64,000 nt of DNA from Sulfurospirillum multivorans DSM 12446 (GTDB taxonomy: Bacteria > Campylobacterota > Campylobacteria > Campylobacterales > Sulfurospirillaceae). Location: the NCBI RefSeq assembly GCF_000568815.1, contig NZ_CP007201.1, forward strand, positions 1,302,001 through 1,366,000, given 5' to 3'. A program made the position numbers and the translations under genes. The notes beneath the pieces are model-generated. The model saw nothing but the letters and a program-made list of their open reading frames with translations. It was not told where the DNA came from and ran no database searches. How positions within the stretch are numbered: the first letter of the stretch is position 1; the number at the start of each line of letters is the position of its first letter. Below, in pieces: positions 24,286 to 57,369 of the stretch.

Positions 24286-24909
24286 ATGGATAAAAAACAG
24301 CTTTTTTTAGAAGCAATGAACTTTCGTCACGCATGCAAGCTTTTCACTGAGAAAAAAATACCCGCAGAAGATTTGGAATTTATTTTAGAAGCAGGGCGTT
24401 TGAGTCCTAGTTCGTTTGGGGTTGAGCAGTGGAAATTTGTCGTCGTTCAAAATGAAGCGCTCAAAAAAGAGATCGAAAACGTCTCATGGAATCAAAAACA
24501 GATCTCAACGTGCAGCGATCTTCTCATCATCCTAGCGCGCAAAGATGTGCGAAGTAGCGATGCTTATACTATCAAACAGCTCAAACGTTGGGGTTTAGCT
24601 GAGAATGACTTTAAAGGATTTCTTGGTATTTACCACGGTTGGGTTGATGGCAGAGATGACCATACGATTGAGATGTGGAGCGAAAAACAGTGCTACATCG
24701 CGGCAGGAAACATGATGACGGCTGCTGCGAGCATCGGTATTGATTCATGTCCGATTGAAGGGTTTGAGTACCAAAAAGTCGATGCACTTTTGGGCATTGA
24801 TACTTCTGTGTACCAAAGTGCTTTAGTGATTCCTTTTGGGTACCGTGCGGCAGAGCAAAGAGGCAAACATCGCTTGAGTTTTGACGAAGTTGTAGAGTTT
24901 AAAAAATAA
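24286..24909 (+). CDS. NAD(P)H nitroreductase (copy 2)
   Basis: A 207-residue paralogue of the gene at 23457, with FRHACKLFTEKK, SPSSFGVEQWKFVV and IAAGNMMTAAASIGIDSCPIEGFE. The middle (about 85-130) differs most between the copies, the region that usually shapes the active-site entrance, so the two may have different substrates. A strong AAGGAG ribosome site precedes the ATG. Its stop overlaps the 3' end of the convergent UbiB-family gene by 11 bases. Confidence 0.92.
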   Translation: MDKKQLFLEAMNFRHACKLFTEKKIPAEDLEFILEAGRLSPSSFGVEQWKFVVVQNEALKKEIENVSWNQKQISTCSDLLIILARKDVRSSDAYTIKQLKRWGLAENDFKGFLGIYHGWVDGRDDHTIEMWSEKQCYIAAGNMMTAAASIGIDSCPIEGFEYQKVDALLGIDTSVYQSALVIPFGYRAAEQRGKHRLSFDEVVEFKK

Positions 24910-26365
24910 TTCGCGCTAATCCTAGTGTGAATAAAACCAGTGCGACCTCTTTGAGTGCGGGGTCGTACATCAGCGTAAACAGCGCGCTGAGTAGCAGTAT
25001 GATTCCCAACATAAAGGGTTTTAGGTACTGTTTTAACTCTTTTTTGAGCCACTCTAACTGTGAAAGAGAGAGTTCAACCTTAAACTCGCCATCGCTGATC
25101 TGTTTAATAGACGATTTGAGATGGTGAAGTGTCAGTGGAAGTGACTTAAACTCTTTAATCAAGCTCTCCAAAATCCCCCCATCCATGCCGAGCGCTTTGG
25201 GAATATTCTCTTGCAAAATGGGCAAAATATCTTTAATGCCGTTAAAATTTTCAATGTACGTTGTCCCCAATCCTTCAATAATCGCACTTACACGTAAAAT
25301 ATAAATGGCTTCTTGTGGCAATTTAAACGGCAGGTCACGGGTGGAACCTAGTACATCTAAGGCAAGTTTTTGCATACTCTCAGAGCTTAGATTTTCATTG
25401 CCAAAGATCTCAAACATGCGCTCACTTAAAAGTGCCAATTCACTCACAGGCGCTTCATACGCAACGGTTCCAAGGCGCTTACTCGCACTAATGTACAGTT
25501 CATAATCTTTCTCATTAGCGGCTTTTAGAAGCTCAATAATGGCGATACGGGTCTGATTCGGGATGGATTTCACCATACCAAAATCAAGTAAAACAAGCTC
25601 TCCCTTGGGCGTAATGAGCAGATTGCCAGGGTGTGGATCAGCATGGAAATAGCCACGAAGGAGCATTTGCTCGGTGTAAAAAGAGATAAGTTTGCCAATA
25701 ATCGCTCTAAAATCAATATTTTCTTTTTTCAAACGCTCTTTATCGTCAAAGCGAAAACCCTCTTCGTAACTCATGACCAGCGCATCTTCACTGCAATACT
25801 CCACAAAAGGTGTTGGAAATAAAATGCCTGAAGATGCGTACACGGAAGAGAATTTTTGAAGGTTGTGAAGCTCGGTGGTCATATTGACCTCTTGCAGAAT
25901 CATCTTTGAAAACTCACCAATCACCGCTTCAATAGAATTTTTCGTGTAGTGTGAAAATAGAGGTCTAAAGAGTCGGTTGAAAAACGAGATAATCACAATA
26001 TCGGCACGGACGCGTTTTTCAATGTCCAAACGCCGAATCTTCACAGCAACTTTTACGCCGTCTATCCACGCTTCATGCACTTGACCAATGGACGCAGAAG
26101 CAAGAGGAATAGAGTCAAAATGCTCAAAAGGCATGGGCGTAAACGCACGAGAGAGTACTACATTTAACTGCGCCTCAGACATGGGTGGAAGTTGGTCATG
26201 CAGTGATTTGAGTTCATCCAAATACTCCGTGCTAAAAAAATCCGCCCGAGTGGCTAGCACTTGCGCTAGCTTAATAAAACTAGCACCCAAATTGACAATA
26301 GTACGGTGTAAGTTGACAGGAGAGAGCGGTTTTAAAAAGAGAAATCGCTCCTTTTTTTTGAGCAA
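24899..26365 (-). CDS. UbiB/ABC1-family atypical kinase-like protein
   Basis: A 488-residue member of the ABC1/ADCK/UbiB family, membrane-associated proteins tied to isoprenoid quinone biosynthesis. Visible are the KxGQ-like ASFIKLAQVLATR segment near residue 33, an ATP-binding ASASIGQVHEAWIDGVKVAVKI, the HADPHPGNLLI catalytic loop, LLDFGMVK and two C-terminal membrane helices. The first canonical start is a TTG at 26365, but the frame stays open for 28 codons upstream to a TAA at 26450-26452 and reads as family-like basic/hydrophobic sequence (NPKRVYDVFYFLLSVYLLL). The real start is therefore uncertain. Confidence 0.88.
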   Translation of the reverse strand: MLKKKERFLFLKPLSPVNLHRTIVNLGASFIKLAQVLATRADFFSTEYLDELKSLHDQLPPMSEAQLNVVLSRAFTPMPFEHFDSIPLASASIGQVHEAWIDGVKVAVKIRRLDIEKRVRADIVIISFFNRLFRPLFSHYTKNSIEAVIGEFSKMILQEVNMTTELHNLQKFSSVYASSGILFPTPFVEYCSEDALVMSYEEGFRFDDKERLKKENIDFRAIIGKLISFYTEQMLLRGYFHADPHPGNLLITPKGELVLLDFGMVKSIPNQTRIAIIELLKAANEKDYELYISASKRLGTVAYEAPVSELALLSERMFEIFGNENLSSESMQKLALDVLGSTRDLPFKLPQEAIYILRVSAIIEGLGTTYIENFNGIKDILPILQENIPKALGMDGGILESLIKEFKSLPLTLHHLKSSIKQISDGEFKVELSLSQLEWLKKELKQYLKPFMLGIILLLSALFTLMYDPALKEVALVLFTLGLARIIF

Positions 26366-55249: not shown

Positions 55250-56468
55250 GAATGCTTTGGTGTCAACACAAGAGGGAGTTCTCAGACACGATGTACGGAT
55301 CAAAGAGGGTAAGATCGTTGCCGTTGGCAAAGCGCTTGATGCAGCAGCGAATGATGACGTGATCGATGCTGATGGGCTTTATTTGCTTCCTGGTCTCATT
55401 GATCTTAACGTGCGCTTTTCCAACAGCTGTCTCAATCAAGAATACATCGATAAACTCTCCAACAGTTGTCTCAAAGGCGGCGTTACAACCGCTGTGGTGA
55501 TGTCGGATTTTAGCCCACGCCTTGAGAGTGCAACCCTTTTGGAGTTGGTGAAATTTAAGATCGATCAAGCCAAAATCAATCTACATATGAGCGCTCCTTT
55601 GGCGGATGAAAAAGAAGATCAGCTCCATAATATTGCGACCTTGTTAAACAATGGTGCCGCAGCCATTTTGGCGGATTCTCATCGCAATGCCAACCTTCTA
55701 AGACGTGGTATGCAGTACGCAACGATGAAAAAAAGACCGCTTTTTGTGCAGTGTTATGAGCCAAATTTGGATGATAATGGGCTGATGAACGATGGTGTGA
55801 TTGCTTCCAACTTAGGACTCTCTGGCATCTCTAAGATCTCTGAGACGGCGGAAGTCGCCAAAGTGGCTGAGATGGCACATTTTTACGGTGCAAAAGTCAT
55901 TTTGAAATCGCTCTCGACCAAACGCTCTTTAGACATCGCCAAATCGCATAAAGCCCTTAAATCAGACCTTTACACAGAAGTTTCGATTCATCATCTCTCC
56001 AAAAATGACACCAGTTGTGATGGCTTTAATACCTATGCAAAATTGATGCCACCGCTTCGAGAAGAAGAGGAGCGCAAGGCATTAATTGGTGCACTGAAAG
56101 AGGGCTTGGTTGATATTCTCACCTCCGCACACTCTCCTAAATCGATTTTATACAAAGATGTGGCGTTTGAAGATGCTGCGTTTGGTATTGGTTCCATTGA
56201 AGAATTCTTAACGCTCGCCCATACATTTTTAATCAAAAATGGCGTGATTGATTTTGGGGAACTTATTCGCATCTGTTGCGTGAATCCTGCGCATATTTTG
56301 GGGCTCTCTTCCAAAGGGGCTATCGAAGTGGGGTACGATGCTGATTTGGTCTTATTTGACCCTACAGAGAGCTATGAAGTGAGCAATAAACACTCGCTCT
56401 ATTACGGCGAGACGTTGCATGGTAAAGTCAAAAAAGTGGTTGTGGGTGGAAAGCTACTTTTGAATTAA
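55239..56468 (+). CDS. pyrC2: Dihydroorotase-like protein (PyrC2), probably inactive
   Basis: A 409-residue amidohydrolase-fold protein similar to dihydroorotases. ATG 55239 follows AGAGGAAGCC; it overlaps the GH3 gene by 11 bases. All expected metal ligands are altered: HxH is NVR (LIDLNVRFSN), the middle His is Gln (FVQCYEP), ILKSLST lacks the second His, and TDHAP is SAHSP. It is therefore likely a pseudo-dihydroorotase, which in other bacteria serves as a structural partner of aspartate transcarbamoylase. The same gene follows gpsA in C. jejuni. Confidence 0.88.
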   Translation: MLIKNALVSTQEGVLRHDVRIKEGKIVAVGKALDAAANDDVIDADGLYLLPGLIDLNVRFSNSCLNQEYIDKLSNSCLKGGVTTAVVMSDFSPRLESATLLELVKFKIDQAKINLHMSAPLADEKEDQLHNIATLLNNGAAAILADSHRNANLLRRGMQYATMKKRPLFVQCYEPNLDDNGLMNDGVIASNLGLSGISKISETAEVAKVAEMAHFYGAKVILKSLSTKRSLDIAKSHKALKSDLYTEVSIHHLSKNDTSCDGFNTYAKLMPPLREEEERKALIGALKEGLVDILTSAHSPKSILYKDVAFEDAAFGIGSIEEFLTLAHTFLIKNGVIDFGELIRICCVNPAHILGLSSKGAIEVGYDADLVLFDPTESYEVSNKHSLYYGETLHGKVKKVVVGGKLLLN

Positions 56469-56473
56469 GAACG

Positions 56474-56632
56474 AATGTTACGCACTTCTTCAAAAGAGCG
56501 TAACATCTTACCTTTTATTTCTCATAAAACTTGTTTTATGAAGCTTTAGGAGGTGTCGGGGATGTATCCCTGACCTTAAACAATGGGTTTTACTCATTGT
56601 TTAAGATACCGTTACGCAAACTGCGTAACATT
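56474..56632. mobile_element. 159-bp inverted-repeat-bounded element (MITE/REP-like) between convergent genes
   Basis: The ends are a perfect 11-bp inverted repeat, AATGTTACGCA (56474-56484) and TGCGTAACATT (56622-56632). Inside are TGTTACGC/GCGTAACA (56476-56505), TCATAAAAC-TT-GTTTTATGA (56522-56541), a stem at 56556-56573, CTTAAACAATG/CATTGTTTAAG (56575-56605) and GTTACGCA-AAC-TGCGTAAC (56611-56629). It fills the gap between pyrC2 and truA. No open reading frame and no clear target duplication. It could be a small non-autonomous element or an unusually elaborate bidirectional terminator. Confidence 0.5.
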
Positions 56633-56634
56633 AG

Positions 56635-57369
56635 TTAGTAAAAGACCCTCGAAAGATAAAGTCCGCACGCTGGAATCAGTGTTGTGGACACTTTCATTTT
56701 ACGATCGCGTTGTGCGATAAGATCATTGTACTCAAGCACGCCATCGCACGCTTTGAGTAAACTTCCGCACATCATCCGTATCTGAGAGCGCAAAAAAGCA
56801 TCGCCTAAAAAGTAGATAACAATCAGATGTTTGTAGCGATACGCTCCTGCTTTAAAGATGGTGCGCTCATCTTTGGTCTTTCCCCCACCCAATTTTTTAA
56901 AATACTCAAAGTTATGAAATCCGACAAAAACCTGTGCATATTCGTTCAATTTTATAACATCAAGTGGCTTTACATGTAACGCATAATGGGATAAAAACGG
57001 CTGATACGCTCCATCGTAAAGCACATAGCGGTAGAGCCTCTTTTTCGCATCAAAACGTGCATGAAACGAGTCATCAACAGGCGTCATGCGCTGAATGAAA
57101 ATATGCGGCGCTAAAAAAACATTAAGCTGGGCTTGAAGTTTTGCAAGGTCACTCCAAAAGGGTGGAAGGTCTACATGTAAAACTTGATGGGTTGCATGCA
57201 CACCCGTATCGGTGCGTCCACTGCCCACAACGGTGGTCTCAATGTTGATATGACGCAAAGCCCTTGTAAGCGCACCAGCGACACTTTGGCAGGTTTTGGT
57301 TTCATTTTTTTGAATTTGGAAGCCAATGAAAGCGCTTCCATCGTAACTTAGAGTGATTTTAACGCGCAT
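56635..57369 (-). CDS. truA: tRNA pseudouridine(38-40) synthase TruA
   Basis: A 244-residue enzyme modifying the tRNA anticodon arm. It has ITLSYDGSAFIGFQIQ at the N-terminus, the catalytic VGSGRTDTGVHATHQV near residue 48 and a C-terminal FLRSQIRMMCGSLL. The gene lies 6 bases after lptF. A palindrome copy at 56970 encodes ALHVKPL. Confidence 0.95.
   Translation of the reverse strand: MRVKITLSYDGSAFIGFQIQKNETKTCQSVAGALTRALRHINIETTVVGSGRTDTGVHATHQVLHVDLPPFWSDLAKLQAQLNVFLAPHIFIQRMTPVDDSFHARFDAKKRLYRYVLYDGAYQPFLSHYALHVKPLDVIKLNEYAQVFVGFHNFEYFKKLGGGKTKDERTIFKAGAYRYKHLIVIYFLGDAFLRSQIRMMCGSLLKACDGVLEYNDLIAQRDRKMKVSTTLIPACGLYLSRVFY

Follow-up and report, generated by a model that had tools for sequence, protein, structure and literature searches.

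What occupies the gap between the convergent genes pyrC2 and truA of Sulfurospirillum multivorans DSM 12446? In the window (the whole 64,000-nucleotide stretch of chromosome that was analysed), the amidohydrolase-family gene pyrC2 ends at position 56468 and truA at 56635, and an earlier note had placed between these convergent neighbours a palindrome-rich feature of 159 bp (56474-56632), likening it to a miniature element or a structured RNA. The neighbours are as described and the feature is real, but its ends had been drawn 2 bp too short on each side, the empty sites and target-site duplications of relatives setting the true span at 56472-56634 (163 bp, plus strand). This span is a complete MITE-like element with full-length homologues that are 91-100% identical and with empty sites, and we consider a non-autonomous DNA transposon (MITE) to be its best explanation, with a probability of about 0.85.

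The element is delimited by the terminal inverted repeats CGAATGTTACGCAC on the left (56472-56485, plus strand; family consensus CTGAYSTTACGCAC) and, in the minus-strand reading, CTAATGTTACGCAG on the right (56621-56634); the perfect 11-bp repeat AATGTTACGCA reported previously is present at 56474-56484 and 56622-56632. Where at least four further stems had been claimed, five hairpins were found, all given here on the plus strand. Hairpin 1 (56475-56506) and hairpin 5 (56611-56629) are the left and right ends folded on themselves, each as GTTACGC...GCGTAAC; hairpin 1 is missing from relatives of 116-118 bp and hairpin 5 is extra with respect to other genera. The interior comprises the hairpin 2 region (56510-56554), whose covarying stem is the inner part at 56522-56541, following TTCTC, the conserved motif AGCTTTAGGAGG at 56542-56553 (AGCTTYAGGRGG across genera), hairpin 3 at 56555-56574 (GTCGGGGAT..ATCCCTGAC) and hairpin 4 at 56575-56605 (CTTAAACAATGGGTTTTACTCATTGTTTAAG), which covaries in relatives. 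The reuse of GTTACGC observed earlier involves hairpins 1 and 5 and the terminal repeat (inverted repeats I1, I3, I7 and I8), so that alternative pairings are possible. The RNA-energy fold of the element reaches -63 kcal/mol compared to -28.6 +/- 3.4 for shuffled sequences (z = -10.1), none of the 200 shuffles folding as stably. No promoter-like site was detected within the 163 bp.

The sequence is not confined to this locus. The S. multivorans genome (G000; 3.18 Mb, one contig) carries it at six places, two of them full length: the window copy, a second full-length copy (95%), three copies devoid of the left part and one remnant. Four genomes of the same genus (G004, G006, G012 and G019) contain similar sets of copies at partly different positions. 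Comparison of the pyrC2-truA gap in the genus, where truA was found in 24 genomes, revealed that the element fills the gap in G000, G004, G006 and G019, that the gap is empty in G011 and G012, in which the two genes lie end to end (...AATCAATAAAAGACG...), and that most of the genus lacks the element there. In the window, the element is flanked on the left by TTAAGAA (56465-56471), a decayed 7-bp target-site duplication that includes the TAA stop of pyrC2 (56466-56468), and on the right by TTAGTAA (56635-56641), which includes the stop of truA (56635-56637, minus strand). The duplication is intact in the sister genome G006 (L018), with the element between TTAATAA and TTAATAA, and in G004 (L017, opposite strand), where it reads TTATTAA. 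This insertion probably occurred once, before the divergence of the four species with a filled gap, which are grouped as one clade from truA identity (91-100%) rather than from a tree. The full-length copy at G000:121780 has its empty site in G019, G004 and G006 and a TAAATAA duplication, and the full-length copy at G019:2894479 has its empty site in G000, G004, G006 and G012, so that empty sites are documented at three independent loci, pyrC2-truA among them. The further copies and empty sites that the earlier note had proposed as a check are thus at hand (six places and three loci, respectively) and, together with the terminal repeats and the 7-bp duplication, bear out its miniature-element reading; the sequence is neither single-copy nor kept in relatives as a terminator, the combination named there as speaking against it.

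The duplication was examined in 75 full-length elements, which come from many genera and include a few that are orthologous or of the same family, so that the number of events is somewhat lower than the counts. Exact 7-bp direct repeats were present at the ends of 26 of these elements, compared to 0.57 expected from mismatched flanks, and 41 had repeats with at most one mismatch (5.35 expected). No comparable peak was observed at 4, 5, 6 or 9-11 bp, and 8 bp were exactly repeated in four elements. The exact duplications give the consensus T-T-A-A/T-T-A-A, near TTANTAA, and the target is AT-rich. All 75 elements have in common the terminal repeat CTGAYSTTACGCAC. The family consensus 13-mer CTGAYSTTACGCA was found 89, 54, 53 and 49 times in G081, G119, G024 and G070, respectively, its reversed pattern, used as a control, giving no occurrence. 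Many Campylobacterales genomes contain the 14-bp terminal repeat at the ends of copies that differ in length, and also at those of several distinct families of non-coding elements.

TTANTAA is also the sequence of two facing stop codons. At pyrC2-truA, the stop of pyrC2 lies within the left duplication and that of truA within the right one, leaving one stop codon for each gene; insertion between convergent genes would duplicate their common stop region and so keep both genes intact. Among 53 full-length elements with enough flanking sequence, the stop of an open frame of at least 80 aa was located in the left duplication in 15 cases, in the right one in 11, in both in 7 and in either in 19, compared to 1.1% per side in control windows further out. 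T[TA]ANTAA sites that lie outside long frames provide a fairer control: such a stop is present at 14.5% of them compared to 36% of the elements, or about 32% once the four pyrC2-truA copies count as one; this control level indicates that target preference and loss of harmful insertions explain much of the excess. With a simple frame caller, 27 of the 107 placed copies fell in convergent gaps (15.2 expected) and only 3 of 126 inside a called frame, copies being found in all three gene arrangements (convergent, co-directional and divergent). Since TTANTAA amounts to two facing stop codons, insertion between tightly packed convergent genes would be tolerated, and this likely target suggests a simple way of living in compact genomes.

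How might such an element move? An IS4-type (ISPepr1-like) DDE transposase supplied in trans would recognise CTGAYSTTACGCAC, excise the element and reinsert it with a 7-bp stagger, duplicating 7 bp of an AT-rich target near TTANTAA; at the present locus, the pyrC2 stop would have been kept in the left target copy and the truA stop in the right one. Such a helper was sought by examining PF01609 genes of MITE-bearing genomes for element-type ends, and none of the 13 matches of S. multivorans had them. Two loci considered as autonomous elements (L065 and L195) proved to be separate MITEs around ordinary genes. In G024, a genome that also has 53 MITE-type terminal repeats, a decayed transposase is bounded by CTGAACTTTCGCAC and CGCAACTTTCGCAC. 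Relatives of this transposase occur in 38 of the 399 genomes of the order; none was found in G000, so the window copy is probably immobile. The candidate helper IS, of the IS4 family, measures 1.48-1.57 kb and has CTYAACTTTCGCAC ends and 7-bp duplications, which are exact in the copies with CTTAACTTTCGCAC ends (TAAATAA in L405, TAAACTC in L407) and in that with CTCAACTTTCGCAC ends (TAATTTA in L417). The two intact transposases tested, those of L405 and L417, pass the curated NCBIfam threshold for IS4_4. The best IS ends agree with the MITE terminal repeat at 11-12 of 14 positions, and no IS bounded by the exact MITE repeat was found among the IS4_4 elements examined. No subterminal sequence is shared, hence the element did not arise from a known IS by simple deletion. 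An IS4_4 transposase is the probable mover of these MITEs. G015, G307 and G097 (L403, L407 and L408) each contain seven matches to the IS4_4 transposase that has relatives with CTYAACTTTCGCAC-type ends, apparently a recent expansion.

The ISPepr1 subgroup of IS4 has been described as 1500-1600 bp long, with YT-AA-YTT---A ends, a 7-8 bp duplication and AT-rich targets (De Palmenaer et al. 2008, PMC2266710). The candidate helper IS fits this description in its length and terminal sequences, in duplicating 7 bp and in its AT-rich target, and copies L405, L407 and L417 conform to its end consensus. The element resembles this subgroup in its 7-bp duplication, AT-rich target and 5'-CT ends, and its repeat matches the consensus at positions 1, 2, 4, 7, 8 and 13; by contrast, the repeat has C/T at position 5, where the consensus has A, and A at position 9 in place of T, and so falls outside the consensus. 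It further differs in having no transposase gene, a length of 116-163 bp compared to about 1.5 kb, and no common subterminal sequence. Several observations weigh against the proposed mechanism: no IS with the exact MITE repeat was found, S. multivorans itself lacks the transposase, the mechanism does not need the covarying inner hairpins, many copies (55 of 130) show no recognisable left repeat, and at least one of these left-truncated copies has a 15-bp repeat.

The location and the folding of the element call to mind two other kinds of sequence. REP/BIME-type repeats spread by RAYT, a Y1 single-strand transposase, are likewise imperfect palindromes between genes, and S. multivorans combines hairpin-rich intergenic repeats with one Y1_Tnp gene. 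That gene, the only Y1/RAYT-type locus of the genome (L096 1390-2245; G000:C1, around 378549), is however flanked by another inverted repeat, GGGGTCAGGGCTAAA...TTTAGCCCTGACCCC, and none of the 30 other Y1 loci examined in genomes with MITEs contains the terminal-repeat pair. Y1 transposition leaves no target duplication and is contradicted by the 7 bp duplicated here, so that, with true terminal repeats, a target duplication and no tie to a Y1 gene, the element differs from REP/BIME and an origin by RAYT is scarcely credible. A conserved terminator of the ordinary kind, intrinsic or bidirectional, between the convergent genes would account for the gene arrangement and for the stable hairpins. 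It is made highly improbable by the lack of any T-tract (G+C stem followed by a T-run), which the earlier note had pointed out, and of any terminator-like match in the element, by the fact that most of the genus has no such sequence in this gap, and by copies between co-directional and divergent genes. The element had no match in phages and plasmids, and its core motif none in viral contigs; two terminal-repeat matches in viral contigs were attributed to chance, being one-sided and in phage-like coding DNA.

A structured RNA deserves closer attention. Hairpin 2 exists in several lineage variants, all paired: GAAAAAC/GTTTTTC, GAAATC/GATTTC, CATAAAAC/GTTTTATG, CCCGCAT/ATGCGGG and CACAAAG/CTTTGTG. 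Because hairpin 2 varies in length and is misplaced in the MAFFT alignment, covariation was assessed by exchanging arms among the copies. In 59 copies, hairpin 2 forms on average 6.59 of 7 pairs with its own arms compared to 4.78 with swapped arms, and hairpin 4 forms 7.94 of 9 compared to 6.36, these values being raw counts uncorrected for the relatedness of the copies; hairpin 3 is nearly invariant. To judge from these sequences, hairpins 2 and 4 are kept paired by compensatory changes across genera, which a plain MITE would not require. The covariance check proposed in the earlier note thus gave a positive result for both hairpins, and its structured-RNA reading is in part supported; the importance of the RNA form itself found no support here. 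Either selection at the RNA or single-strand level or repair between the arms could maintain the pairing. A cis-regulatory or small RNA that was spread by transposition but owes its retention to a role as RNA, for example in stabilising or processing mRNA 3' ends, would agree with pairing preserved through changes on both arms, with a motif AGCTTYAGGRGG nearly fixed across genera and with a fold far more stable than that of shuffles. We regard it as unlikely, given that the covariance models of Rfam 15 gave no match at any threshold used, that the copies occupy all three gene arrangements, that sister species lack a copy while having both flanking genes in place, and that intra-element repair or template switching could equally keep palindromes matched. 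Similarly doubtful is a reading in which selection acts on the interior (hairpin 2, AGCTTYAGGRGG, hairpins 3 and 4) as a structured RNA module that rides IS4-type transposition across Campylobacterota; if true, the family would be a mobile set of regulatory or processing sites instead of a plain parasite. Of the whole element, it is the covarying interior that merits further attention; its hairpins permit a direct test of selection on MITE structure.

Returning to the MITE reading, the element is similar to Correia/NEMIS, ERIC, QMITE and MITEAba12 (reviewed in PMC10969869) in being short, non-coding and intergenic, with terminal repeats, strong structure and many copies, and differs from them by its hosts, its 7-bp duplication and its inner hairpins that covary between genera; at the sequence level, the comparison with these families extends only to the absence of an Rfam match. 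That review of prokaryotic MITEs is silent on Campylobacter, Arcobacter and Epsilonproteobacteria (PMC10969869), and no description of the family was found in the MITE literature on the relevant genera, a search that missed most subscription journals. The element family is a previously unnamed MITE family of a known kind, in sulfur-cycling relatives of Campylobacter. Campylobacterota thereby gain a MITE family whose precise ends, target and duplication length are defined and for which there is a candidate helper; the literature searched contains none of these particulars.

Matches to the conserved motif plus the hairpin upstream of it were obtained in 46 of 299 Campylobacterales genomes, some of these matches being probably due to chance, with up to 25 motif matches per genome elsewhere. 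Scanning of the named genomes yielded at least 120 stretches, and Sulfurimonas, Sulfuricurvum, Sulfurovum, Sulfurospirillum, Arcobacter and other Campylobacterales are among the matches listed. Seven motif matches (L066-L071 and L076), in which similarity stops short of the element, were set aside as probably fortuitous. Copies fall into size classes of 116-118 bp (without hairpin 1), 142-143 bp and 163 bp, the last being that of the S. multivorans genus, in which both ends also self-fold (hairpins 1 and 5). Further non-coding elements, 150-178 bp or 257-269 bp long, have the same ends, so that several MITE families use one recognition sequence. The distinct 257-269 bp elements (L355-L358 and L362, in G145, G070 and G081) have the terminal repeat CTGACCTTACGCAC or CTGATGTTACGCA, inner palindromes and, in several cases, 7-bp duplications; the 150-178 bp family (L360, L365, L354, L367 and L373) is richer in G+C and has CTGACCTTACGCAAAAT ends and many copies in G081.

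It should be noted that, of 130 copies whose right end is recognisable, 55 have no recognisable left repeat, and many of these 55 begin at TTCTC; the search was anchored on the core, and this count thus does not prove a left/right asymmetry. One left-truncated copy, in G019 (L049, about 1001-1116), has its empty site in the window at 24898-24912: the 15-bp target TTTAAAAAATAATTC is duplicated around that copy, so that the direct repeat is 15 bp long in place of the usual 7 bp, and the left junction lies at a TTC common to target and element. This copy possibly arose by one-ended transposition. Finally, five copies from different records (L112, L135, L192, L206 and L223) contain an extra hairpin (CTAAAGAAACATTTTCGC..GCGAAAA..CTTG) inside hairpin 2, which looks like the addition of a nested module.
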